Source: Mangrovibacterium lignilyticum (lineage in GTDB: Bacteria > Bacteroidota > Bacteroidia > Bacteroidales > Prolixibacteraceae). From it: a stretch of DNA of 64,000 nucleotides. Positions 14,554 through 26,269 of the stretch are shown in pieces. Below the pieces are notes generated by a model that was given only the letters and a program-made list of their open reading frames with translations, was not told the origin of the DNA and did no database searches. The DNA lies in the NCBI RefSeq assembly GCF_010882175.1, contig NZ_WKLH01000004.1, forward strand, positions 197,425 to 261,424, written 5' to 3'. The position numbers and the translations under genes were made by a program. How positions within the stretch are numbered: the stretch's first letter is position 1; every line of letters begins with the position of its first letter.

Positions 14554-14915
14554 TTCGTATTTCCGCTCGTTGGGAAGGCGAAGTTGCAAACAGATTTTCA
14601 TTTCCCCATGCCGCGACGTCAAAGTTGACAGTCAGGAATGTCTTCGCGGGGCGGGAAAATGAAAGTTGACGATCGGTTTTCATTTCCGCGAGCCGCGAAG
14701 CCCAAATGGACGGCTGGTTTTCATTTCCGCGCACGGCGAAGCCAAAATGAATTGTTGGATTGTTCTTCCCGCAGGCGAAAAATGAAAGTTGACGATCGGT
14801 TTTCATTTCCGCGCGCCGCGAAGACCAAATGGATGGCTGATTTTCATTTCCGCGCGCCGCGAAATGAAAACCAGCCGTCAGGAATGGCTTCCCCGTCCCG
14901 CGAAATGCTATTTTC
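14552..14915 (+). repeat. 41-bp tandem repeat array, about nine units
   Basis: Units begin near 14552, 14593, 14634, 14675, 14716, 14757, 14798, 14839 and 14881. Most contain GRTTTTCATTTCCGCG followed by a CCGCGAAG-type block and then AAATGGACGGCT or AAAGTTGACGATC. Units three, six and nine are a divergent class beginning GGAATG or GGATTG. One 32-base stretch is identical at 14659-14690 and 14782-14813. There are no conserved repeats with unique spacers, so this is not CRISPR. It abuts the 3' end of the hydrogenase operon. A related single copy lies inverted at 23501-23550. Confidence 0.85.
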
Positions 14916-14917
14916 GC

Positions 14918-15421
14918 TTAAGCCGTTTGTGGATTTACGCAAGCTTCCTGGTATTCGGCAATAATTTTAGCCACTTGCTGCGGCGAAACCCGTCCGTAGA
15001 CTTTTTCGCCAACCAATACGACCGGCGCTAATCCGCAGGCACCAACGCAACGCAGGCAACTCAGTGAGAACCTCCCGTCAACCGATGTTTGGCCAACTTC
15101 AATTCCTAACTGGCGTTTGAATTCGTGCAAAACTTTCTCGGCACCCCGCACATAACAAGCTGTTCCCATACAAATTGAAATGGGATGCTGCCCTTGTGGT
15201 AGCATGGTGAAGAATGAATAGAAAGTAACTACCCCATAAACTTTGGCAACCGACATATTCAGTTCCTTGGCAATAACTTCCTGCACTTCCGCAGGTAGGT
15301 AGCCTAATTTGTGTTGAACCTGATGCAGCACATTGATCAGCTCTGATTCCTGGTTATTAAATTGAGCACAGATTCCTTTAATCAGCTCAACCGCTTTATC
15401 TGCTAGTTTTATTTTGGTCAT
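14918..15421 (-). CDS. hydC: NuoE-like subunit of [FeFe] hydrogenase
   Basis: A 167-residue thioredoxin-like [2Fe-2S] protein of the NuoE/HydC family. An N-terminal helical bundle (LINVLHQVQHKLGYLP) precedes the cluster ligands C84 and C89 (CMGTAC) and C125 and C129 (CVGAC). In HydABC-type enzymes this subunit links the flavin subunit to other clusters. It is the last gene of a ten-gene minus-strand operon, 54 bases after hydA. Its stop codon touches the 41-bp repeat array. Confidence 0.93.
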   Translation of the reverse strand: MTKIKLADKAVELIKGICAQFNNQESELINVLHQVQHKLGYLPAEVQEVIAKELNMSVAKVYGVVTFYSFFTMLPQGQHPISICMGTACYVRGAEKVLHEFKRQLGIEVGQTSVDGRFSLSCLRCVGACGLAPVVLVGEKVYGRVSPQQVAKIIAEYQEACVNPQTA

Positions 15422-15475
15422 GATGTTGTCTTTTTTTGTCTAAAGTCTAATATCTATAGTTTCCAAGGTCTAGCC

Positions 15476-17227
15476 TTAGCTACGGTCGAAATACTTTGTG
15501 TGCAACAAATGGTGTGCTTTCTCACTCATAGGTGCACCCAGGAATTCTTCGTAAAGCTTCTGGATATGCGGATTTTCGTGCGACTTGCGCAAGGTTTTGT
15601 TTTTATCTTCTGAGTAGATCGCCTTTTGCCGTTTTTTCAGAATTTCAACATCTCCATGATGATAGGGCTGACCGCCACCGCCAATGCATCCTCCCGGGCA
15701 CGACATGATTTCGATGGCGTGGAATTCGCTTTCCCCGGCTTTGATTTGTTCCAGCAATTGGCGGGCATTTCCCAACCCATGGGCGATTCCGATATTGATC
15801 GGTGTTCCGTCAAAATCGATGGTTGCTTTACGAAGCCCTTCCATGCCACGTAATTCTTCAAAATCGAGGCGGGGGAGTGATTTCCCGGTTTGGATTTCGT
15901 AGGCCGTTCGGACAGCCGCTTCGATTACACCACCTGTTGTTCCGAAAATCACCGCTGCTCCTGTTGATTCACCTAACGGTTGATCGAAATCTTCTTCAGG
16001 CAACGATTTGAAATCGATATTTGAAATGTTGATCAGCGAAGCCAGTTCGCGGGTAGTCAAAGCATAATCCACATCCGGATTACCATTTACGGCAAATTCA
16101 TCGCGGCTGCTTTCGTATTTCTTTGCCACACAAGGCATGATGGAAACCACCACCAGGTTTTCCCGTTTTACTTCTATTTTATCGGCAAAATAGGTCTTGG
16201 CAATAGCACCAAACATTTGCTGCGGCGAACGGGCTGTCGATGGGATATCTTTTAATTCGGGGAACTGATGTTCAAAGAATTTTACCCACGCAGGACAGCA
16301 GGAAGTCAAGATCGGCATCTTCACATTTTTATCGCCTCCAAGGTATTTGCCCAGTCTGTTCAGCAATTCGGTACCTTCCTCCATGATGGTGAGGTCGGCT
16401 GCAAAGTCGGTATCAAAAACATAGTCGAAGCCTAAACGACGAAGGGCTGAAACCATCTTCCCTGTCACCAGTGTTCCAGCTTCCATCTCAAACTCTTCGC
16501 CTAAAGCGGCACGAACGGCCGGAGCGGTTTGCACAATGACTGTTTTTGACGGATCGGAAAGTGCGCGGATAACAGCGCCTGTTTCGTCAACCTCGGTTAA
16601 CGCTCCGGTTGGACAAACAGCCACGCACTGGCCGCAGTAGGTACACACTGAATGGTCGAGATTCATTTCGAAAGCCGGTGAAACAACAGCTTCGAAACCC
16701 CGGTTGATGGTTGAAAGCACACCAACCGACTGCACTTTGTTACACATGGTTTCGCAACGGCGACATAAGATGCATTTGTCGAGTTCGCGAATTATGGCCG
16801 GAGAGGTGTCCTCCCGATAATGAGACTGTGCTCCCTGGTAGTGAATTTCGCGGATTCCCATGTTTTGAGCCATCTCCTGCAAGTCACACTTTCCCGATTT
16901 GGCACAGACCAGACAATCAGAAGGGTGGTCAGACAGAATCAGTTCCAGCACGGTCCGGCGGGCATTTACGGCCCGCATCGAGTGGGTGCTGATTTCCATG
17001 CCTTCAGCCACTTCGGTGCAACATGCAGGAGCCAGGTTGCGTCGGCCTTTTACTTCGACCACACATACCCGGCAACCGCCCGGTTTGTTTTCAATATTCA
17101 TGTCGTGCAGCTTCATGTGGCACAATGTTGGGATGTCGATTCCAACCACAGATGCTGCATCCAGGATCGTCGTCCCCTTAGGAACTTCGAGCGTTTTATT
17201 GTCGATATTTAATTTGATTTTTTTCAT
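15476..17227 (-). CDS. hydA: [FeFe] hydrogenase catalytic subunit
   Basis: A 583-residue group A [FeFe] hydrogenase. From the N terminus it has a plant-type [2Fe-2S] domain (C36, C52, C55, C69 or C70), the His-Cys [4Fe-4S] site (H101, C105, C108, C114), two [4Fe-4S] motifs (C152-C162 and C195-C205) and the H-cluster domain. All three signature motifs are intact: TSCCPAW at 308-314, MPCVAKKYE at 364-372 and MSCPGGCIGGGG with C510 and C514. It catalyses reversible proton reduction. With the NuoE- and NuoF-like partners it forms an HydABC-type complex that can couple NADH and ferredoxin oxidation to H2 formation. The maturation genes hydE, hydF and hydG are not in this window. Confidence 0.96.
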   Translation of the reverse strand: MKKIKLNIDNKTLEVPKGTTILDAASVVGIDIPTLCHMKLHDMNIENKPGGCRVCVVEVKGRRNLAPACCTEVAEGMEISTHSMRAVNARRTVLELILSDHPSDCLVCAKSGKCDLQEMAQNMGIREIHYQGAQSHYREDTSPAIIRELDKCILCRRCETMCNKVQSVGVLSTINRGFEAVVSPAFEMNLDHSVCTYCGQCVAVCPTGALTEVDETGAVIRALSDPSKTVIVQTAPAVRAALGEEFEMEAGTLVTGKMVSALRRLGFDYVFDTDFAADLTIMEEGTELLNRLGKYLGGDKNVKMPILTSCCPAWVKFFEHQFPELKDIPSTARSPQQMFGAIAKTYFADKIEVKRENLVVVSIMPCVAKKYESSRDEFAVNGNPDVDYALTTRELASLINISNIDFKSLPEEDFDQPLGESTGAAVIFGTTGGVIEAAVRTAYEIQTGKSLPRLDFEELRGMEGLRKATIDFDGTPINIGIAHGLGNARQLLEQIKAGESEFHAIEIMSCPGGCIGGGGQPYHHGDVEILKKRQKAIYSEDKNKTLRKSHENPHIQKLYEEFLGAPMSEKAHHLLHTKYFDRS

Positions 17228-17242
17228 GTTTAATCCTCTACC

Positions 17243-19036
17243 TTAAGCAATTTTAATCGCGTCAAACTTACATTTCTCGAAACACACGCCGCACTTAATA
17301 CAAAGCTTTTGGTCGATGTAATGCGGGCTGCGTTTTTCGCCCGAGATTGCACCAACCGGGCAATTGCGGAAGCACAGTGTACAGCCGGTACATTTTTCGT
17401 CTTCAATGACATATTGCATTAAAGCTTTACACTGGCCAGCCGGACAAGATTGATGTTCGACATGTGCTTCATATTCGTGCAGGAAGTTATCCAGAGTCGA
17501 CAAGATTGGGTTGGGAGAGGTTTGGCCTAAACCGCATAAGCTTGTGTCTTTGATCACATGGCTCAACATGCGCAGCTTGTCGATGTCCTCGCTGGTGCCT
17601 TTCCCTTCGGTTATTTTTACCAGTATTTCGTGCAAACGCTTATTGCCGATTCGGCAAGGCGTACATTTTCCGCACGATTCATCCAGCGTAAATTCGAGGT
17701 AGAATTTGGCGATGGACACCATGCAGTCGTCTTCGTCCATCACAATCATACCTCCGGAACCCATCATTGAGCCGGCAGCAATCAGGTTGTCGTAGTCGAT
17801 TGGTGTATCCAGAAAATCTATCGTGAGGCAGCCGCCGGATGGGCCTCCTGTTTGCACAGCTTTGAATTCTTTGCCGTCTTTGATACCACCACCAATGTCG
17901 TAAATCACTTCGCGCAGGGTAATTCCCATAGGCACTTCAATCAAGCCCACATTGTTTATTTTACCGGCTAAAGCGAAAACTTTGGTTCCTTTTGATTTTT
18001 CGGTTCCGATGCTTGCAAACCAATCAGCCCCTTTATTGATGATCGGAGGAATGTTGGCAAAAGTTTCCACATTATTCACGTTGGTTGGTTTGCCCATATA
18101 ACCCGATTCTGAAGGGAATGGCGGTTTGAAAGTCGGTTCGCCGCGTTTACCTTCCATCGAGTGAATCAGGGCTGTTTCTTCACCACAGACGAATGCGCCG
18201 GCACCATAACGAATTTCAATTTCAAAGTTGAAGGCGGAGCCCAGAATTTCCGGCCCCAGTAAGCCATATTCTTTGGCTTGTTCCAACGCTATTTTTAAAC
18301 GTTGAATGGCCAATGGGTATTCGGCCCGAATGTACACCAAGCCTTTTGATGCTCCAATGCAGTACCCGCAAATTGCCATCGCTTCAATGACCGAGTGCGG
18401 ATCGCCTTCTAAGATGGAACGGTCCATGAATGCTCCGGGGTCTCCTTCATCGGCATTACAAACCACAAATTTTTCATCGCCCGCAACGTTGTGCGTAATT
18501 TCCCATTTCAGCCCTGTTGGGAATCCACCGCCACCACGTCCACGCAGTCCGGATTTTTTGATGAGATCAATGACTTCTTTGGGGCTGTAGCTTTCGAGGC
18601 ATTTTCCAAGCGCTGCGTAGCCATCGTTCCCAATGTATTCTTCAATATTTTCGGGATTGATGAAACCGCAGTTTCGCAATGCAATACGGACTTGTTTTTT
18701 GTAGAAGTCCATGTGTTTGCTATCGCCAACTTTCTCCTCCGTTTTTGGATCTTTATAGAGCAGGCGTTCAACTTTTCGCCCTTTCAGAATATGTTCGTCT
18801 ACAATTTCATTGGCGTCTTCCGGTTCTACCGATACATAAAATGTATTGTCGGGTTGAATTTTGACGATCGGCCCTTTTTCGCAAAAACCAAAACAGCCGG
18901 TTTGGAGCACTTGCACCTGTTCGTGCAGGCCATGGTCGATAATGCGTTTCGTTAAATTTGTTTTCAGCAGGTCGGCTTGGCTGGCTTTACAGCCCGTTCC
19001 TCCGCAGACCAAAATATGCGTATTAAATTCTGCCAT
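17243..19036 (-). CDS. hydB: NuoF-like flavin subunit of [FeFe] hydrogenase
   Basis: A 597-residue subunit. An N-terminal thioredoxin-like [2Fe-2S] domain (C11, C16, C48, C52) is followed by the NuoF core with the FMN/NADH-binding glycine-rich loop GLRGRGGGGFPTG at 163-175 and the NADEGDPGAFMD segment, then the CGKCTPCR [4Fe-4S] site, and finally a ferredoxin-like tail with two CxxCxxC[x3]C sites. This order is that of HydB in electron-bifurcating [FeFe] hydrogenases, where the flavin exchanges electrons with NAD(H). The gene is 15 bases upstream of hydA and 14 bases downstream of a separate small ferredoxin gene. Confidence 0.95.
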   Translation of the reverse strand: MAEFNTHILVCGGTGCKASQADLLKTNLTKRIIDHGLHEQVQVLQTGCFGFCEKGPIVKIQPDNTFYVSVEPEDANEIVDEHILKGRKVERLLYKDPKTEEKVGDSKHMDFYKKQVRIALRNCGFINPENIEEYIGNDGYAALGKCLESYSPKEVIDLIKKSGLRGRGGGGFPTGLKWEITHNVAGDEKFVVCNADEGDPGAFMDRSILEGDPHSVIEAMAICGYCIGASKGLVYIRAEYPLAIQRLKIALEQAKEYGLLGPEILGSAFNFEIEIRYGAGAFVCGEETALIHSMEGKRGEPTFKPPFPSESGYMGKPTNVNNVETFANIPPIINKGADWFASIGTEKSKGTKVFALAGKINNVGLIEVPMGITLREVIYDIGGGIKDGKEFKAVQTGGPSGGCLTIDFLDTPIDYDNLIAAGSMMGSGGMIVMDEDDCMVSIAKFYLEFTLDESCGKCTPCRIGNKRLHEILVKITEGKGTSEDIDKLRMLSHVIKDTSLCGLGQTSPNPILSTLDNFLHEYEAHVEHQSCPAGQCKALMQYVIEDEKCTGCTLCFRNCPVGAISGEKRSPHYIDQKLCIKCGVCFEKCKFDAIKIA

Positions 19037-19050
19037 GTTTTTTCGGTTTG

Positions 19051-19446
19051 TTAGTCTTCGAGCGTTTTGTAATTGGCCGGTATTATTCCGTCAACCAGTT
19101 CGTTTAGTTTGATGTGCTTTTCAATAATTTCCTGTGCTTTAACCTTGTCTACGAATCCATAGACAACCGATTCTTTCCCGGGAATTAGAACTTCAATAGT
19201 CGGCTCTGCATAGCAATAGCCCATGCAGCCGGTTTGAGTGACGACAGCATCAATACCTTGGTGGTCTAACTCTTCAACCAGATAGTTCATGGTTTCTTTT
19301 GCGCCTGACGCAATGCCACAGGTGGCCATGGAAACTTTTATGTGAACCAGATTTTCGGGATGATCTCCCTTCTCCCTTAGCTGAATTTTCGACTGAACCT
19401 CGTCTTTCAATTTACGCAGGTCAGCCAGTGATTTGATTTTTGTCAT
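19051..19446 (-). CDS. (2Fe-2S) thioredoxin-like ferredoxin
   Basis: A 131-residue protein with a thioredoxin-like [2Fe-2S] fold: a first cysteine in the VSMATCGIASGA region and a second pair in TQTGCMGYCYAEP, followed by a VYGFVDKVKAQEIIEKHI helix. It resembles the N-terminal domain of HydB/NuoF and probably shuttles electrons to or from the hydrogenase or carries a redox signal. The ATG at 19446 is used; an in-frame extension to 19521 is rich in Lys, His and Asn and looks untranslated. Similar stand-alone ferredoxins accompany HydABC genes in Clostridia. Confidence 0.82.
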   Translation of the reverse strand: MTKIKSLADLRKLKDEVQSKIQLREKGDHPENLVHIKVSMATCGIASGAKETMNYLVEELDHQGIDAVVTQTGCMGYCYAEPTIEVLIPGKESVVYGFVDKVKAQEIIEKHIKLNELVDGIIPANYKTLED

Positions 19447-19527
19447 ATTGATTTTAGGTTTATGAGTATGATTTTTTAGGTTTATTAATTTCGTCTTTCT
19501 TTCATTCAGGTAACAGGTCAAATGTCA

Positions 19528-20076
19528 TTATTCGCTTATTTGTATTTGCTCCAGATTCTCCAGAATCATGCTTTTTAAGAATTGTCTGATTTCTTTCGTT
19601 ACTAAGGGGACTCCACCCAAAATATTTTTGATTTCGCGGGAGTCGAAATTGAATTCGCCCTGTAGCGTTTGATGGCGATACAGGATGTCGGTGTCATTTT
19701 CGTTAGCCAGTAAAATGAGCATTGTCCCGGCTATATCGCCCAGAATGGGTCGATCGATGTGCCGGTAACCAAATGTGGCGACCAATGTTGTTCCACCTCC
19801 GGGAGTTGATTCAATTAGAAAGGAGCCGCCGCATTGCTCTGTATTTTGTTTCAGCATCGGAATACCCAGGCCAACTTTACGGGTGCTGCGGGAGGTAAAA
19901 AAAGGATCGGTGACTTTGTTTAGGGTTTCTTCATCCATCCCGATACCGTTGTCTTTAATTTTCAGTTTGTAACAATCTTTCTCAGGGTTTTCCCGAATGT
20001 AGATTTCAACCAGGCTGGATTTAGCCCGGATCGAGTTTTGAGCGATGTCAAGTATATGTAATGATAGTTCAGTCAT
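19528..20076 (-). CDS. stand-alone HATPase (GHKL) ATP-binding protein
   Basis: A 182-residue protein with a GHKL ATP-binding domain but no dimerisation/phospho-acceptor domain. The N box is LDIAQNSIRAKS near residues 9-20, the G1 box DNGIGMDE near 42-49 and the G2 box KVGLGIPML near 67-75, with GGGTTLVATF at the end of the fold. It is similar in layout to anti-sigma kinases and to the ATPase half of histidine kinases. Its ATG overlaps the stop of the PHP gene by four bases (translational coupling). Its role in the hydrogenase island is presumably regulatory. Target unknown. Confidence 0.82.
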   Translation of the reverse strand: MTELSLHILDIAQNSIRAKSSLVEIYIRENPEKDCYKLKIKDNGIGMDEETLNKVTDPFFTSRSTRKVGLGIPMLKQNTEQCGGSFLIESTPGGGTTLVATFGYRHIDRPILGDIAGTMLILLANENDTDILYRHQTLQGEFNFDSREIKNILGGVPLVTKEIRQFLKSMILENLEQIQISE

Positions 20077-20819
20077 TCTTCAATTTTTACAGATCGCCCT
20101 TTTTTCTGATTCAGGGCCCATCGTATTTCCTCGAACGAAGGTTTTGCCAGTTCGAAGATGGTGCATGCAGTGCCAATATCTTCCGGATAGTGGGCGTCGG
20201 ATGCCTTAATTAATGTAATGTCGGGGTGTATGTCAAATAGTTTGCGAATCTGGCTTTCCTGAGCACGCTTACTGATTTGCATGGCATCGATCTTCAGTTC
20301 GTGGGGGAGAAAACCCAGTTGGCTGAAGAGGCTGTTCATCGGCCGGTCGATGTGTGCCGGAATGAATAGACCATTCAATTGGTGTATGAAATCAGCAATG
20401 GTTTCCAACTCAACTTGTAAGCCGTTTCCCAGATACCAGGGCATTTCTTCAACAATTTGGTTGTCTCTGTCTACCACAACCTGGTAGCCAAAATAATTGG
20501 GTTTATTCGGGATTTGCGGTAAGTAGTGTTCAATGAATGCCTGAAACTCATTCATGCTATGGTCGTCTTCAAACAAACAAAGGGAGTGAACCTCCTCGAG
20601 GCTGTTTACCTCACATCCATTGATAACCACAATTCCCGAATCGGCTGCCATTTCACGCACCACCCGGCACTGTTTGGTGCTGTTGTGGTCGGTTATGGCA
20701 ATAATATCCAGTTGTTTTTGTTGCGCAACGGTAATAATCTCATCAGGGCTCATAGCCAGATCGGCACAGGGCGAAAGTACCGTGTGCAGATGCAGGTCGG
20801 CTCTGAACCGCCGCATCAT
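20073..20819 (-). CDS. PHP domain metal-dependent phosphoesterase
   Basis: A 248-residue PHP-family protein. Metal-binding motifs are visible: HLHTVLSPCADL near residues 10-21, ITDHNS near 41-46, a GCEVN glutamate near 67-71 and the C-terminal ASDAHYPED near 212-220. PHP enzymes hydrolyse phosphate esters, including nucleotide and polynucleotide substrates. In hydrogenase-associated clusters the substrate is not known. Its ends overlap both neighbours by four bases, so it is clearly part of this operon. Confidence 0.85.
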   Translation of the reverse strand: MMRRFRADLHLHTVLSPCADLAMSPDEIITVAQQKQLDIIAITDHNSTKQCRVVREMAADSGIVVINGCEVNSLEEVHSLCLFEDDHSMNEFQAFIEHYLPQIPNKPNYFGYQVVVDRDNQIVEEMPWYLGNGLQVELETIADFIHQLNGLFIPAHIDRPMNSLFSQLGFLPHELKIDAMQISKRAQESQIRKLFDIHPDITLIKASDAHYPEDIGTACTIFELAKPSFEEIRWALNQKKGRSVKIEE

Positions 20820-21154
20820 TTGTCAGCTAATAAAGCGTGCAATTTACCGGCAATATCAAATGTTGAGAGAGAGCTTGACAGAATGGGGATTTGTTCCTCA
20901 TTACTGTGTTGGATCGTATTGGCGTTGGCTTCCAGATCTTTCACCAGTATAACTGCCGCCAAATCTTTCAGGGAGGCAATGGCCATTACATTTTGGTGTA
21001 CTTGCAGGGTGATCCAGATTTGTCCTTCACGGGCGTTTCCCATTACATCGCTTAACAGGTCGGAGACATATGCTCCGCTTATTTCGCGGTCGAGACCTTT
21101 CTCGCCGGCGATTACTTTCAATCCTAGTTGGTCAATTATTTCAGAAACCTTCAT
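20816..21154 (-). CDS. DRTGG domain protein (first copy)
   Basis: A 112-residue stand-alone DRTGG domain protein, related to the N-terminal or linker domain of HprK and phosphotransacetylase-type proteins. It begins MKVSEIIDQLGLKVIAGE and has the YVSDLLSDVM segment near residue 28-37 that is shared with the second copy encoded at 22935-23279. No catalytic motif is present. It overlaps the upstream HydS-like gene by 14 bases and the PHP gene by four. A ligand-sensing or adaptor role is plausible but not shown. Confidence 0.78.
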   Translation of the reverse strand: MKVSEIIDQLGLKVIAGEKGLDREISGAYVSDLLSDVMGNAREGQIWITLQVHQNVMAIASLKDLAAVILVKDLEANANTIQHSNEEQIPILSSSLSTFDIAGKLHALLADK

Positions 21155-22520
21155 TTCGTCTTCCTCTTTTGTTACAATCAGCTTTAAATCTGTCTTTGCC
21201 CCATTTTTTCTCCATATTATTCAGGGCCTTGGAGGTTGATATTTTATTTTCTTCCTGCCATGTTTGTTGCAGGAATACGCAGTCGGACATTTTCGCCTGT
21301 TGGCAAGCCATATCTTCAGCCAGGGCTTGGCAGTTTGGCGCTCCGCATGCACCACAATCTATTCCCGGCAGGAAACAGATAATTCGTTGCATTTTGCTCA
21401 TTTTCTCCAATGCTTTTTCACGGTTTTCATCTAAAATGAAAGCGGGGTTCGCCTTCAGTGGTTCAGATATGAGCTTGCTTTTCAGCACGGGTGCCATCTC
21501 CTGGATGGGATGATCTTTGAACTTTAGCGACGATTTGTAACGTTTTGCACGGTGTTCCAATCGTTCGGCAGTCAGGAAACGGTTGCCCGAAAGCAGGTTG
21601 CCACCAGCACAACTTTGGTCGCATGCTCTTAGCTCCAGAAAGTCAAGATCCGGAACTTCTTCATTTTCGAGACGCTCCAGAAATTTGATCACATTGTGGA
21701 TACCGTCAATGGCCATGCTACGTTCGCCAAAGTGTTTCGCTTCACCACGGGTGAGACTCCACAGAATACCATCGCGTGTGAGGTTTTCCCGTTGGTCGCT
21801 TGTATCGGGTACTTCGGCTGTGCTTATATTTTTTCGTACCCGGTTGTATAGCTCGTTCATATTAATGATGCCATCAACGATGGATTCTTCACCATCGGCC
21901 GGGCTTTTTACAGAGCTCATTTTCGCAATACACGGGGTCACATAAAACAATCCGATTTCTTCGCGTTTGGCTCCTAACTTTTTCATCTGTTCCAACGCAA
22001 AACAGGCTCCCAAATCCTGGGGCGATTTTCGTGGAATCACATTGTCAACCAGCGAAGGATAGCGAATCTGGATGAGTCGGACCACCGATGGGCAGAAGGT
22101 CGAAATATGTGGTTTGTATGTTTTGTCTTTTCGGCAATATTCGCGAATAGAATCCTTCAGAAAGCCGATAGGTTGCTCTACCTCGTAAACATGTGTGAAG
22201 CCAATTTTCAACAATGCTGCATAAATCTGGTCTTCCGTATATTTTTCAGGAAACTGCCCGATCATCACCGACGGAAAAAGCACGACCCGGTATTTGAATG
22301 ATTTGATTTTATCCAAGTCATCCTGCTCGGCATAAATTGCTTTTGCCGGACATTCGCGCATACAGCGTCCACAATCGACGCATCTTTTTTGCTCAATAAC
22401 AGCCAACCCATTACGAATCCGAATTGCTTCGGTAGGGCAAGAGGTCATGCAATGTGTACAACCGATACACTTTTGCGCATCAACCTTGAGGGCGTGATAT
22501 GTTGGTGTGGTTGTACTCAT
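21141..22520 (-). CDS. HydS-like putative sensory [FeFe] hydrogenase
   Basis: A 459-residue protein. Two ferredoxin-type [4Fe-4S] motifs (C18-C28, C47-C57) are followed by an H-cluster-type domain with degenerate motifs: TFC143P replaces TSCCP, TPC197IAK replaces MPCxxK, and C300-x3-C304 in RACDQSCAGG replaces MxCxxGC. The four expected cluster cysteines remain but the proton-relay cysteine is Phe. A C-terminal site C389-x2-C392-x4-C397-x16-C414 matches that of group C sensory hydrogenases (HydS), which usually continue into a PAS domain. Here no PAS is fused; a PAS protein is encoded divergently at 23632. It probably senses H2 or redox state rather than turning over H2 fast. Confidence 0.85.
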   Translation of the reverse strand: MSTTTPTYHALKVDAQKCIGCTHCMTSCPTEAIRIRNGLAVIEQKRCVDCGRCMRECPAKAIYAEQDDLDKIKSFKYRVVLFPSVMIGQFPEKYTEDQIYAALLKIGFTHVYEVEQPIGFLKDSIREYCRKDKTYKPHISTFCPSVVRLIQIRYPSLVDNVIPRKSPQDLGACFALEQMKKLGAKREEIGLFYVTPCIAKMSSVKSPADGEESIVDGIINMNELYNRVRKNISTAEVPDTSDQRENLTRDGILWSLTRGEAKHFGERSMAIDGIHNVIKFLERLENEEVPDLDFLELRACDQSCAGGNLLSGNRFLTAERLEHRAKRYKSSLKFKDHPIQEMAPVLKSKLISEPLKANPAFILDENREKALEKMSKMQRIICFLPGIDCGACGAPNCQALAEDMACQQAKMSDCVFLQQTWQEENKISTSKALNNMEKKWGKDRFKADCNKRGRRNEGF

Positions 22521-22521
22521 C

Positions 22522-22932
22522 TTAAAAATAATTTACCATGCTTACAGTTGTACTCTGCCCAACGACCGAATCAATTTTTAATTCGTCAGTATTTTTTTTG
22601 ATGTTGGGAAGTCCCATTCCGGCTCCAAAACCCATTTCGCGAACCTTTTTGCTGGCCGTGGAAAACCCTTCTGTCATGGCCATCGCAATATCCGGAATAC
22701 CCGGACCTTCATCAGTAATCAGCGTTTGGATTTTGTCTTTGTCAATCTGAATGTGAATTTGTCCCTTGTAGGCATGTGCCACAACGTTCACTTCGGCTTC
22801 GTACAGGGCAATAACAATACTTTTGATACACTTTGCATCAACTCCCAATTGCTTCAACACCTTCTTTACCCGGCTCGACGCTTGTCCGGCCTGGGTAAAA
22901 TCTCCTCCCTCAATTGAAAAGTCAAGTTCCAT
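22522..22932 (-). CDS. RsbW-like anti-sigma/serine kinase ATPase
   Basis: A 136-residue GHKL protein of the RsbW/SpoIIAB kind. The N box is YEAEVNVVAHAY near residues 44-55, G1 is DEGPGIPD near 74-81 and G2 is GFGAGMGLPNI near 101-111. Such proteins bind sigma factors or phosphorylate STAS antagonists. No STAS protein or dedicated sigma factor is encoded nearby, so the partner is unknown. It lies one base before the HydS-like gene and two bases after the second DRTGG gene, and a PP2C/SpoIIE phosphatase is encoded divergently. Confidence 0.87.
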   Translation of the reverse strand: MELDFSIEGGDFTQAGQASSRVKKVLKQLGVDAKCIKSIVIALYEAEVNVVAHAYKGQIHIQIDKDKIQTLITDEGPGIPDIAMAMTEGFSTASKKVREMGFGAGMGLPNIKKNTDELKIDSVVGQSTTVSMVNYF

Positions 22933-22934
22933 AT

Positions 22935-23279
22935 TTAGTATACCGGTTTTAGTCCCTCTTTAAATAATATTCCACTTGCTTTGAACATGGTAAAAGGCGA
23001 TTCCATGATGCAAATACCGTGTTCCTTGGCCAACTCCAGCATTTCGTCGGTCAACTTTTTGTTGCGGACAAAAACGATAAACCGGATATCTGCCATTTCG
23101 GCTGTGCGAATAGTTTGCAGGTTGCACATGCCTGTAATTAACAGCAGGTTGTCTGTGTCGAGTGTCAGAACATCACTCATTAAGTCAGAGCTGTAGCCTT
23201 TTTCGATTTGAACATTGTTCTGCGTTTCTCCGCAAATCACCTTTGCAGCTAGTAATTCGCAGATTTTAGAGATCTTCAT
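22935..23279 (-). CDS. DRTGG domain protein (second copy)
   Basis: A 114-residue paralogue of the protein encoded at 20816-21154. Shared features are the opening MKxSxIxxxLxxKVIxGE, the YxSDLxSDV segment and a C-terminal helix. It is the first gene of the ten-gene minus-strand hydrogenase operon, so the operon promoter should lie between 23280 and about 23400. No catalytic residues are evident. It may act as a phosphorylation substrate, ligand sensor or adaptor for the neighbouring kinase and phosphatase; this is inference. Confidence 0.77.
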   Translation of the reverse strand: MKISKICELLAAKVICGETQNNVQIEKGYSSDLMSDVLTLDTDNLLLITGMCNLQTIRTAEMADIRFIVFVRNKKLTDEMLELAKEHGICIMESPFTMFKASGILFKEGLKPVY

Positions 23280-23631
23280 TCATTCAGGATTTGTTTACAA
23301 ATATGGTTCAAAAGGCTAAAATGAACGATTATTTCAGTCACAATGTGAGTTTTATCAGCTAAATTTAGATTCATTATAAAGTACTGCATTCTCCCGAATT
23401 CGTGGAAGTTAGATTGATGTTCGGAGTTAGTCAGCCTGAATATTAAGCACCTGGTTGTATTTTTGATTTTCTGCAATCGATTGTCTCGTTTGAAAGCTTT
23501 TTCGTGGTGGAAATGAAAATAGGGCTCCCACCGTCCATTTCGGTTTTATAGCTGAAAAGTTGATCTGAATTCTGCTGTATTTTTTGTACTTTTTGAAAGA
23601 AAAATCAACGACTGAATTTAAACCGAAGCTC
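23280..23631. other. divergent control region of the hydrogenase island
   Basis: Separates the minus-strand hydrogenase operon from the plus-strand PAS/phosphatase pair. I find no perfect TAnnTTTG for the operon; the nearest is minus-strand CATATTTG at about 23296-23303. For the plus strand, TATTTTTTG near 23578-23586 is a loose -7 match. The segment 23501-23550 holds an inverted degenerate copy of the 41-bp repeat found at 14552-14915. Confidence 0.5.
23501..23550 (-). repeat. single inverted copy of the 41-bp repeat
   Basis: Read on the minus strand it contains CCGAAATGGACGG followed by ATTTTCATTTCCACCACGAA, matching CCCAAATGGACGGCTGG and TTTTCATTTCCGCG of the array at 14552-14915, with the same order of blocks but a slightly longer gap. 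About one and a quarter units remain. Confidence 0.6.
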
Positions 23632-24564
23632 ATGATCTACGATGAAAATTCTTTTCTTCCCGACGTCCCCGATTCTCAAGGCTTTTCGCAACACTTAATC
23701 GATGCTTTACCTATGCCGGTTTATTTGAAAAGTGAAGGCGGCACAATTCTGATGGGCAACAAAGCATTTTGTTGTTTGCTGAATTGCGGGAATATGGAAT
23801 TGAGAGGAAAAAAAGTGATGGACTTTTTAGAGGAAGATCAAGCGGGGCAGTTCGATCGGTTTGATCAGGATTTGTTGGCAGATGAGGGAACGCAAAACTA
23901 CGAAGCCCGGATCAGGACCGGAAGCGGGGTGTCCTGCGAATATGCTTTCCAAAAGTCTTTGTTGCATGATTCGAAGAATGAGGTGATCGGGATTGTTTGC
24001 TCTATGATTGATTTGAGTGAACAGAAAAAGGCGGAACGACAGATGGAAGAAGCACAGGAAGCCACGGTAATGGCATCGGCCATGTTGCACAAAATTCGGG
24101 CAGGAATTGTGATTGTTGGCAGTGACATGCGGGTAATCGATTCGAATCCGGGTTTTGCCAAATTAATCGGTGGTGATGTTGAGGAATTGGCTGAAACCGT
24201 CCCCGGGCTCTCCGGAGCTGATTTGAAAGAACTGGTTCCCGATGTCCTTTATCGCATGTTTGCCACTTTGATGAGTTCGGGTGAAAATATGGTTGAGCGG
24301 GATCTGCGTTACCAGAATAAGTTGCTGCATGTGTCGGTTATCTCCATTTATAAAAATCGGGTGGTAGGCGCTCTTATTCGCGATATGTCGGCGCCGGCTT
24401 TGGTTCGTGAAGAAATTATCAGCCGCGCACAGCGCGTGAACAAACAGAATATGGAAACGGTGCAGAAAATCGCTTTTCTGCTGGGTGAAAATGCTTCGGT
24501 CATGGAAGAGCTTCTGCATTCAATTATCGAGTCGTACAAATATGGGGAGGATGAGCCATCATGA
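23632..24564 (+). CDS. PAS domain sensor protein
   Basis: A 310-residue cytoplasmic protein with two PAS-type modules and no kinase domain. The first (about residues 18-130) has LIDALPMPVYLKSEGGTILMGN and ends in a PAC-like DSKNEVIGIVCSMIDLSEQKK; the second (about 145-260) has MLHKIRAGIVIVGSDMRVIDSNPGFAKLIG. A helical tail follows. The ATG at 23632 is chosen over TTG at 23584. Its stop overlaps the phosphatase start by four bases, so the two are coupled. In group C hydrogenase sensors a PAS is usually fused to HydS; here it may be supplied separately. Confidence 0.82.
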   Translation: MIYDENSFLPDVPDSQGFSQHLIDALPMPVYLKSEGGTILMGNKAFCCLLNCGNMELRGKKVMDFLEEDQAGQFDRFDQDLLADEGTQNYEARIRTGSGVSCEYAFQKSLLHDSKNEVIGIVCSMIDLSEQKKAERQMEEAQEATVMASAMLHKIRAGIVIVGSDMRVIDSNPGFAKLIGGDVEELAETVPGLSGADLKELVPDVLYRMFATLMSSGENMVERDLRYQNKLLHVSVISIYKNRVVGALIRDMSAPALVREEIISRAQRVNKQNMETVQKIAFLLGENASVMEELLHSIIESYKYGEDEPS

Positions 24565-25742
24565 GTGAATTACACGTTGATGTTGATTTTCAGCAGAAGA
24601 TGGCTCACGGAGAGGTCGTCTGCGGCGATGTTTTCCACTCGCGACGGATTAGTGGTGAGGGCCGTTACATTCTGATTCTATCCGATGGTTTGGGACATGG
24701 TATTCGTGCCAACGTCATGGCAACGCTTACGGCTTCCATGGCGATGAATTACACCTCGTTTCATACTAAACCTGAAATTGCTGCCGATATTTTCATGCGT
24801 GTTTTGCCGCAGCACAGCGAAAGTAAAGAAAGCTATGCCACCTTTACCATTATTGAAATTGACAACGATGAGTTGGTGAGAATCATTAATTACGATAATC
24901 CGCCCAGTCTGATCTTTCGACATGGAAAGCCGTTTGTTCCGCGTGAATTGGAAATTCCGATCCGTGGAGAAGAGAACATCGGGAAGATTCTTCGAATTCG
25001 GGAATTTAAGCCGATCAAAGGTGATCGGATTGTTTTTACCAGCGATGGTGTCACGCAGAGTGGGCTCGGTGGAAAACGTTTTCGCATGGGCTGGGGCAGG
25101 CAGTTGCTTTCCGAATTTATTGAAAATCAGTTGGATCGTGAATCGGAAATGACAGCTACTCGACTGGCACGTAAGATCATGAACCAAACAGCGATGAATG
25201 ATGGTTTCCGGATGAAAGACGATGCCAGTTGTGGTGTGGTCAATTTTAGGAGACCTCGCGAGTTTATGCTGATAACAGGACCACCGTTTTATAAAATAAA
25301 GGATATGGACTTTGTCGATCGGGTGACGAGCTTTCCCGGCAAAAAGATTATTTGCGGTGGAACAACAGGTGAAATTATTGCACGTGAACTGAAACTGGAT
25401 GTAACGATCAAACACCACTATGAAGGAGACGATATTCCTCCCGCTGCGGAGATGGAAGGTTTTGAAATGGTTACTGAAGGCATTTTAACCATGGGGCGGG
25501 TAGAAGAGATGTTGGAAAATTACACGAGCGATACGAGGCTGGAGAATTCGCCACCGGAAGAAGTCGTCAAACTGCTACTGGACCACGATATCATCCACAT
25601 TCTATTGGGTACCCGTATTAATCGGGCGCACCAGGACCCCGAACAACCGTTCGAAGTACAAATCCGCAAGTTTGTTGTGAAACGAATTGTAAAGATTCTG
25701 GAAGAACGCTTTTTCAAAAAAGTCTTTCTGGAGTTTATCTGA
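24561..25742 (+). CDS. SpoIIE/PP2C-type serine phosphatase with C-terminal extension
   Basis: A 393-residue protein. Residues 1-230 form a compact PP2C/SpoIIE phosphatase with metal ligands D23 (CGDVF), D42-G43 (SDGLGHG), D162-G163 (SDGVTQSG) and D220-D221 (KDDASCGVV). Residues about 235-393 form a separate region containing FPGKKIICGGTTGEIIARE and GFEMVTEGILTMGRVEEML, which I do not recognise as a named domain. Such phosphatases reverse phosphorylation by RsbW-type kinases. It is coupled to the PAS gene and faces away from the HydS/RsbW operon. A redox- or H2-responsive partner switch is the likely context. Confidence 0.87.
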   Translation: MSELHVDVDFQQKMAHGEVVCGDVFHSRRISGEGRYILILSDGLGHGIRANVMATLTASMAMNYTSFHTKPEIAADIFMRVLPQHSESKESYATFTIIEIDNDELVRIINYDNPPSLIFRHGKPFVPRELEIPIRGEENIGKILRIREFKPIKGDRIVFTSDGVTQSGLGGKRFRMGWGRQLLSEFIENQLDRESEMTATRLARKIMNQTAMNDGFRMKDDASCGVVNFRRPREFMLITGPPFYKIKDMDFVDRVTSFPGKKIICGGTTGEIIARELKLDVTIKHHYEGDDIPPAAEMEGFEMVTEGILTMGRVEEMLENYTSDTRLENSPPEEVVKLLLDHDIIHILLGTRINRAHQDPEQPFEVQIRKFVVKRIVKILEERFFKKVFLEFI

Positions 25743-25810: not shown

Positions 25811-26269
25811 ATGAAAGACCAAACGATAAAAGAACAGCTCCTGCACAAACTGAATCAGCTATTGGATGAACGCATTGTCGCAGCCGATAAATCCATTCAA
25901 TCGGCTAAAGAATCGCGCGACAATGATACCAAAAGCAGCGCCGGCGATAAGTACGAAACCGGGCGCGAGATGATTCAACAGGAAATGGATAAACTGCAGG
26001 CTCAACTGGCAAAGGCGCAAAGCATGAAAAATGATCTGCTGCAAATCAATCCGAACAAAGAATATACACAGGCTGAATTTGGAAGCTTGGTTTGTTGTAA
26101 CCAAGGGAACTATTTCTTCTCGGTGGCTTTAGGTAAAATTGAGTTGGACGGTACTCCCTACTTTTGTTTGTCAATGGTATCGCCTATCGGTCAGGCTTTG
26201 ATGCAAAAAAGGGTAGGAGACGAGCTTACTTTTAATGGAACCCGAATTGTCATTCAGAAAATTTATTGA
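25811..26269 (+). CDS. GreA/GreB-like elongation factor family protein
   Basis: A 152-residue protein often mislabelled as 3-oxoacyl-ACP synthase in Bacteroidota. The N-terminal half is a coiled coil (KSSAGDKYETGREMIQQEMD, then KLQAQLAKAQSM), and the C-terminal half (about 92-150) is an FKBP-like fold similar to the C-terminal domain of GreA/B (FFSVALGKIELDG, then MVSPIGQALMQKRVGDEL). It may bind RNA polymerase, but whether it has transcript-cleavage activity cannot be judged. Single gene. Confidence 0.75.
   Translation: MKDQTIKEQLLHKLNQLLDERIVAADKSIQSAKESRDNDTKSSAGDKYETGREMIQQEMDKLQAQLAKAQSMKNDLLQINPNKEYTQAEFGSLVCCNQGNYFFSVALGKIELDGTPYFCLSMVSPIGQALMQKRVGDELTFNGTRIVIQKIY

Follow-up and report, generated by a model that had tools for sequence, protein, structure and literature searches.

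A conserved HydABC hydrogenase operon with a hydrogenase-like sensor candidate and kinase- and phosphatase-type genes in Mangrovibacterium lignilyticum

Gene content of the hydrogenase island

The locus of interest lies in a 64,000-nucleotide stretch of the Mangrovibacterium lignilyticum genome (assembly GCF_010882175.1, contig NZ_WKLH01000004.1, positions 197,425 to 261,424; hereafter, the window). It consists of a HydABC-type hydrogenase operon that also encodes a hydrogenase-like sensor candidate, HydS, together with a divergent pair of signalling-type genes. Ten minus-strand and two plus-strand open reading frames (ORFs) were called, and their products were labelled from Pfam and NCBIfam scans as follows.

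14918..15421, minus strand: hydC, NuoE-like thioredoxin-fold [2Fe-2S] subunit (PF01257, 173 bits)
15476..17227, minus strand: hydA, catalytic [FeFe] hydrogenase subunit (NCBIfam FeFe_hydrog_A6, 907.6 bits; cut-off 765)
17243..19036, minus strand: hydB, NuoF-like FMN/NADH subunit with N-terminal 2Fe-2S and C-terminal 4Fe-4S domains (PF01512 (Complex1_51K), PF10589, Fer4)
19051..19446, minus strand: Fd2, small thioredoxin-like [2Fe-2S] protein (PF01257, 20.7 bits, under the 24.8 cut-off)
19528..20076, minus strand: GHKL2, stand-alone HATPase_c ATPase (PF02518, 60 bits)
20073..20819, minus strand: PHP-family metal phosphoesterase (PF02811, 37.6 bits)
20816..21154, minus strand: DRTGG2 protein with SDLLSDVM motif (PF07085, 29.3 bits; gathering score 25.2)
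21141..22520, minus strand: HydS, group D (M2e)-type [FeFe]-hydrogenase-fold sensor candidate, 459 amino acids (Fe_hyd_lg_C, ferredoxin and FeS domains)
22522..22932, minus strand: RsbW/SpoIIAB-like serine kinase candidate (HATPase_c_2, PF13581, 55.4 bits)
22935..23279, minus strand: DRTGG1 protein with SDLMSDVL motif, candidate kinase partner (PF07085, 20.4 bits, under the 25.2 cut-off)
23632..24564, plus strand: PAS-PAS protein (PAS domains; the C-terminal half is a homologue of the PAS output part of group C HydS)
24561..25742, plus strand: SpoIIE/PP2C phosphatase (phosphatase part, residues 1–232, followed by a conserved C-terminal part)

This is the gene content described in a first-pass annotation of the same DNA: a HydABC operon with a hydrogenase-like sensor candidate and kinase- and phosphatase-type genes. 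The ten ORFs of the minus-strand unit (14918–23279) carry the domains named there, and the divergent PAS protein and SpoIIE/PP2C phosphatase were recovered as plus-strand ORFs 23584–24564 and 24561–25742. The reported gene overlaps of 4–14 bases measure 4 (20073–20076), 4 (20816–20819), 14 (21141–21154) and 4 bases (24561–24564). Two start sites were revised: the Fd2 start was moved to the ATG at 19446 (a longer ORF, up to 19521, begins with TTG), and that of the PAS gene from 23584 to the ATG at 23632, giving a MIYD start that is common to most aligned relatives.

By its sequence, the hydrogenase is a HydABC enzyme, NAD-linked and of NCBIfam group A6 (A3 in other schemes): HydA scores over the curated cut-off, and HydB and HydC adjoin it. 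The HydA H-cluster motifs are intact (TSCCPAW, MPCVAKKYE and EIMSCPGGCIGGGG). Fd2 resembles the N-terminal parts of NfnB, HoxF and a NiFe hydrogenase subunit B, and is probably an extra electron-transfer subunit. Pfam and NCBIfam scans of the cluster proteins returned no STAS, sigma or DNA-binding domain, and no histidine-phosphotransfer domain was found in GHKL2.

Conservation of the module and the class of HydS

A genome scan confirmed at least 316 relatives, of which the best 80 were retained as loci; order and neighbours in these 80 loci were scored among 12 query families. All 80 retained loci belong to Bacteroidota, going by their record titles, and the nearest HydS relatives among the matches listed come from Sunxiuqinia and other Prolixibacteraceae (best 83%). 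DRTGG1-RsbW lies directly upstream of HydS in 79 of the 80 loci (the remaining locus starts at RsbW, at a contig start), and DRTGG2-PHP directly downstream in all 80. The run continues through GHKL2-Fd2-HydB-HydA-HydC in 53 loci; 24 loci end with less than 1.8 kb left, and three, all Parabacteroides, break off with more than 8 kb left. The interval between PHP and GHKL2 exceeds 500 bases in 6/75 loci, where GHKL2 still adjoins Fd2-HydB. Separately, two loci (L048 and L049) have three genes inserted between PHP and GHKL2; by eye, one is Sua5-like and one an XRE/cupin-like regulator.

A check of gene-order conservation had been proposed with the first-pass annotation. Since the order recurs in dozens of genomes, with the five-gene core in 79/80 loci, we consider the island to be more than a chance assembly. 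Among 295 genomes of the order, 85 carry HydS, the window genome counted (E≤1e-50). A sample of 296 genomes from the phylum gave 20 matches (E≤1e-20), the only strong ones besides the window being genomes G172 (E 1e-82) and G180 (4e-72); the remaining 17 are longer frames of 580–710 residues, one of which is, by eye, group C-like with a C-terminal PAS. The gene set had been called unusual in Bacteroidota. These counts contradict that claim: the set is common, not rare, within its order, and some of its parts look new. The comparison with gene order in Clostridia and Thermotogae was made from published passages.

HydS consists of an N-terminal ferredoxin domain and Fe_hyd_lg_C, with two N-terminal [4Fe-4S] sites and four H-cluster cysteines; the Pfam scan found no PAS domain in it. 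Its C-terminus carries a Cx2Cx4Cx16C motif (C389, C392, C397, C414), which most group C sequences share and which is thus not exclusive to group D. Residues were surveyed in 93 HydS sequences (the window, the 80 loci and 12 from further genomes, duplicates kept). The four H-cluster cysteines, the L2 lysine and the four C-terminal cysteines are each invariant in 93/93. The position of Cys299 in CpI is aromatic in every sequence (Phe in 73, Tyr in 20), while that of CpI Met353, before the L2 Pro-Cys, is T195 in the window HydS and Thr in 90, Ser in 2 and Ala in 1 of the 93. A Gly-Glu pair, which we equate with E252 of TamHydS (the group D protein of Thermoanaerobacter mathranii), is also conserved.

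In the cited passages of PMC8163306 and PMC10407848, the features of group D are the lack of PAS, a Cx2Cx4Cx16C motif, Ser or Thr in place of CpI Met353, and loss of Cys299. A tree of 36 available sequences (TamHydS not included; the tool warned of long branches) places 19 group D-type sequences on one side of a branch (support 100/99), apart from groups A, B and C, and 12 group C-type sequences on another branch (99/99). On this evidence HydS bears group D (M2e) features; because it lacks PAS and branches separately from the group C sequences, it is not group C, and the earlier assignment to sensory group C falls. In the PAS protein, Pfam finds no H-domain; neither of the two proteins has the group C fusion of an H-domain with a C-terminal PAS. 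The window genome (5.6 Mb) encodes three Fe_hyd proteins—HydA, HydS and one in a 500-residue frame on another contig—with no group C HydS among them.

The likeness to TamHydS covers the absence of PAS, the cysteine motif, the hydroxyl residue in place of CpI Met353 and the glutamate equated with E252 (cited passages of PMC8163306 and PMC10407848). It extends to the surroundings: the neighbours of TamHydS include a trimeric hydrogenase of group A and an ATPase resembling histidine kinases, the nearest gene context that we encountered (PMC8163306). The window HydS differs in having an aromatic residue at the Cys299 position. Alanine is the usual substitute there, and the residue of TamHydS (cited passage of PMC10407848). 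The TamHydS operon has an AraC-family regulator as its other neighbour and no PAS domain, and the passages cited from PMC8163306 and PMC10407848 do not mention DRTGG, PHP or PP2C.

Catalytic motifs are conserved in the other module proteins. The RsbW-like protein scores best against the NCBIfam models spIIAB and RsbW, under the cut-off of each, and its ATP-site motifs are kept in 81/81 (YE.E.N, the N-box), 80/81 (DxGPGI) and 79/81 (GFGAGMGL) sequences. PHP motifs are similarly retained among 77 relatives (D.H.H 77, DHN 77, SDAH 74, E[IVL]H 71), and the GHKL2 patterns are satisfied in 72, 74 and 59 of 75. DRTGG1 and DRTGG2, 27% identical in the window, have an SDLxSDV-type motif in common. The search pattern matches 79/80 DRTGG1 (the exception reads SDLMSEVL) and 81/81 DRTGG2 sequences, and no sequence of either set lacks the serine of D[LM]xS (80/80 and 81/81); the motif of the G172 DRTGG2 reads SDLLSNVI. 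PF07085 reaches E≤0.001 in 11 of 12 DRTGG members tested, the window DRTGG1 itself being under the gathering score. When a DRTGG profile was compared with the PDB, structures of HprK and inorganic pyrophosphatase matched only behind the motif. Pizza6 design proteins, the top PDB rows, score only 4–5 bits per repeat; we took these matches as chance. We propose that the second serine of the motif may be a phosphoacceptor or docking site.

The PAS/PP2C pair and variants of the module

The origin of the PAS protein can be read from its relatives. Residues 144–326 (numbered from 23584) align with the C-terminal part of 18/18 long PAS-bearing proteins encoded beside the module in Bacteroidota (42–50% identity over 153–186 aligned positions, BLAST E≤2e-43); L065, the one long protein checked by Pfam, contains an H-domain. 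The N-terminal half is a different PAS domain, according to the domain scan and a structure model of modest confidence (predicted local distance difference test 71, predicted template-modelling score 0.42), and its nearest PDB sequences include the PAS domains of BvgS and phytochrome. As no invariant Cys or His occurs in a 14-row alignment of the PAS protein, no cofactor is assigned to the N-terminal PAS. On this evidence, the PAS protein corresponds to the output part of a sensory hydrogenase of group C, with a second PAS in place of the H2-binding half and the phosphatase partner kept.

The PP2C proteins of both arrangements are 44–83% identical to that of the window (11 aligned). A PP2C tree, with an outgroup of nine sequences from six genomes (loci drawn in by matches to long group C-like HydS), needs one change per arrangement, with weak support (75/55, 77/44); read most simply, though with weak support, PAS took the place of the H-domain once. 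The PP2C metal motifs are kept in 35, 34 and 34 of 35 relatives. Structure matches mainly span residues 2–232, and the C-terminal part (~residues 233–393) is conserved, with GGTT and TEGILT motifs.

Among the 80 loci, the PAS-PAS form occurs in 19 (two cut), either adjoining the module or up to ~6.4 kb off, and the long form in 18; neither form is seen in 31 loci that extend 8.5 kb or more upstream, and the stretch is too short to judge in the other 12. Genome-wide (E≤1e-50), the PP2C family is found in 65/85 HydS genomes vs 35/210 others (Fisher p 2.5e-22, kinship ignored). The pair, presented in the first-pass annotation as part of the set, is thus not fixed at the locus, but it does co-occur with HydS across genomes.

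The module also sits on a different type of hydrogenase. In the distant genomes G172 and G180, HydC, Fd2 and HydB come after the run DRTGG1-RsbW-HydS-DRTGG2-PHP-GHKL2, together with a protein that begins like HydA but has no H-domain; in G172 the body of this protein matches HdrA2 (428.6 bits, under the 1100 cut-off). Next come [NiFe] small and large subunits (best models in G172 VhuG and VhuA, under cut-offs), with HdrB/HdrC-like genes, again under cut-offs, on the opposite side. HypA is over its cut-off in G172 and an MvhD/VhuD-like gene is present in G180; HypB in G172, and the other genes in G180, were labelled by eye only. These [NiFe] Hdr/Mvh-type operons have the upstream module, HydB/HydC-like proteins and small 2Fe-2S proteins in common with the window operon. 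They differ in having [NiFe] subunits for HydA, and a HydA-like N-terminus on a body without H-domain (HdrA-like in G172). In loci L029 and L030, the HydS module precedes what appears to be an NADH-linked [NiFe]-Hdr operon, one subunit of which is a HydA-HdrA chimera.

HydE, HydF and HydG, the H-cluster maturases, are all over cut-off in the window genome. Eight genomes were checked: the same four (G000, G298, G299, G300) reach the cut-offs, and none of the three proteins does so in G172, G180, G296 or G297. Across the order (E≤1e-40), HydF is present in 178/295 genomes: 75/85 with HydS and 103/210 others. The idea that HydS is always without H-cluster was discarded on this count. G180, G296 and G297 still encode full-length HydA, with TSCSP in G180 where others read TSCCP; in the two Parabacteroides genomes (G296 and G297, loci L120 and L119), the HydA H-cluster motifs are intact. 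Because Parabacteroides genomes without detected maturases carry such a HydA elsewhere, the maturase result is to be taken with care; in G180, G296 and G297 the maturases may be missed, diverged or lost.

Ten of the 85 HydS genomes are without HydF at threshold. Four of their loci (G404, G503 and G587, of one family, and G303) hold the six-gene module without hydABC in the stretch examined. In G350 (L154, 3643–5971), hydC comes straight after hydB, nothing between them matches HydA, and the regulatory genes are present. HydA is kept in G371, G343 and G453 (cut by the contig end in G453; genome completeness 78%). G447 (completeness 93%) shows only DRTGG1-RsbW-HydS of the module in the stretch examined, which suggests that these three genes are the module core. 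In G395 (also 93%), an undetermined stretch separates HydS from RsbW, no DRTGG2 or PHP lies past HydS, and the contig ends at the place of DRTGG1. Together, these variants point to a role of the module that outlives HydA.

A proposed phosphorylation switch and its alternatives

The first-pass annotation had suggested a H2- or redox-responsive switch. Such a switch is plausible; its signal and output are our proposals. In the mechanism that we put forward, a six-gene signalling module (DRTGG1, RsbW-like kinase, HydS, DRTGG2, PHP and GHKL) would be set on HydABC and its small [2Fe-2S] protein. HydS would sense H2 or the redox state of ferredoxin by its iron-sulfur clusters, perhaps also by an H-cluster where maturases exist, and would relay the signal to the RsbW-like kinase by way of the [4Fe-4S] site at the HydS C-terminus, this direction being likewise presumed. 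The kinase would phosphorylate the proposed site, a serine of the SDLxSDV-type motif, in DRTGG1 and/or DRTGG2. The PAS-PAS/PP2C pair, descended from an H2 sensor of group C by loss of the H2-binding half, would act as the opposing phosphatase in this lineage, on a substrate that we likewise presume. Finally, the DRTGG proteins would act by protein contact on the HydABC complex, or on the GHKL protein; a direct protein output on HydABC is preferred because the cluster contains no sigma factor, STAS or DNA-binding gene. That such a phosphorylation switch reads H2 or ferredoxin redox state via iron-sulfur clusters, and usually controls HydABC, is a tentative reading to which we give slightly less than even confidence.

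RsbW-RsbV-RsbU and SpoIIAB-SpoIIAA-SpoIIE are partner-switching modules. The window cluster has the RsbW-type kinase and SpoIIE-type phosphatase in common with them; it differs in having no STAS and no sigma factor, with DRTGG proteins at the expected place of the partner. A bolder version of the proposed switch would have DRTGG, not STAS, proteins as the substrates of the RsbW kinase, and HydS as an iron-sulfur redox sensor that can be plugged onto HydABC, onto [NiFe]-Hdr, or onto nothing adjacent. Its basis is the aromatic residue at the place of the catalytic cysteine and the retention of HydS even where no H-cluster maturase was found; in this full form we judge it unlikely.

Several observations weigh against the proposed switch. 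The N-terminal cluster residue Cys21 is kept in 90/93 HydS, being His in G172 and Asp in G180. The first serine of the DRTGG motif varies (Ala in 5/80 DRTGG1, Cys in 3/81 DRTGG2), and the motif serine could have a structural role. Nor is the phosphatase obligatory: PAS/PP2C is missing from the stretch examined in 31/68 judgeable loci, and 20/85 HydS genomes are without the PP2C family at threshold. The retention of the module without hydABC in some genomes means that HydABC need not be the sole target. Lastly, the window genome encodes elsewhere a STAS protein and a stronger HATPase_c_2 match, and RsbW could act outside the cluster.

One alternative concerns the signal. HydS may be a true H2 sensor, whose full H-cluster, made by HydE/F/G, binds H2 and signals via the same module. 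The maturases of the window genome, the enrichment of HydF in HydS genomes and the invariant L2 lysine all argue for this, as does TamHydS, which holds an H-cluster and reacts with H2 (cited passages of PMC8163306 and PMC13104023). However, every HydS surveyed has Phe or Tyr at the Cys299 position, where TamHydS has Ala (cited passage of PMC10407848); G172 keeps the module with HydS as its only Fe_hyd protein and no HydE/F/G at cut-off, and the ten HydF-less genomes point the same way. A true H2 sensor is possible, though we lean towards doubting it. By comparison, a classical sigma-factor switch, in which RsbW sequesters a sigma factor and the STAS anti-anti-sigma is encoded elsewhere, appears improbable: the best models of the RsbW-like protein are spIIAB and RsbW and the window genome has one free STAS protein with a DSSGLSS stretch, but the gene for this STAS protein sits on a different contig, with no module around it, and the window cluster is devoid of a sigma factor (STAS was not among the 12 families searched in the 80 loci).

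The remaining alternatives question the circuit itself. DRTGG, GHKL, PHP and HydS might be assembly or activity-tuning partners of HydABC; in favour are the overlapping genes, the tight linkage, and GHKL2 staying beside Fd2-HydB where it is separated from PHP. The module stands without hydABC, however, in three Parabacteroides loci and in four HydF-lacking genomes, and the RsbW-type kinase and PP2C co-occurrence point to phosphorylation; we find this explanation distinctly unlikely. It is somewhat less unlikely, though still doubtful, that the PAS/PP2C pair signals on its own and is no more than a neighbour of the operon. The pair is divergent here and often not seen in judgeable loci, and its PP2C family occurs in genomes without HydS; against this stand the PAS-PAS form near the module in 19 loci, a further 18 loci that have group C HydS/PP2C within the stretch, and the strong PP2C-HydS co-occurrence.

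Among described systems, group C sensory hydrogenases of Ruminococcus albus (PMC6776011) and the protein TmHydS (PMC10055695) have, in the cited passages, a phosphatase partner as here, and the R. albus hydrogenase with its putative phosphatase (PMC6776011) is the nearest described case. Compared with group C HydS, the window PAS protein lacks the hydrogenase half and has another PAS domain in its place. In Hydrogenedentota, according to PMC11406978, genes of group C3 occur next to A3 hydrogenases; the same source describes C1 proteins in which no H-cluster motifs can be recognised, and the latter may be a parallel to sensors that may not bind H2. Overall, the island appears to resemble a sensory-hydrogenase phosphoswitch that is neither group C nor a canonical RsbW/STAS switch. 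In the literature searched (most subscription journals lie outside its scope), DRTGG and hydrogenase are co-mentioned only in unrelated passages.

These findings bear on how putative sensory [FeFe] hydrogenases, the role of which is termed unknown or untested in the cited passages of PMC8163306 and PMC13104023, relay their signal. The operon offers a short, testable parts list in cultured Bacteroidota: (i) a kinase candidate, (ii) two DRTGG proteins with a common motif, (iii) a phosphatase and (iv) a PAS adaptor. Together with the natural variants (PAS in place of the H-domain, a [NiFe] operon that bears the module, and the module in genomes without a detected maturase), it makes the choice between H2 and redox sensor directly testable.

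Some minor observations concern the surroundings of the operon. No promoter or operator block stood out in an alignment of the divergent region from the window and seven chosen loci, and an Rfam scan of the window gave zero matches over the gathering score. An array of a 41-base GC-rich repeat with inverted-repeat content lies at 14595–14907, between hydC and an SDH_alpha-like neighbour gene; a 2-mismatch match to its 14-base core in the divergent region (23506–23519) may be due to chance. The next gene past the phosphatase (25811–26269) weakly resembles the C-terminal part of GreA/GreB (27.8 bits, cut-off 26.9).

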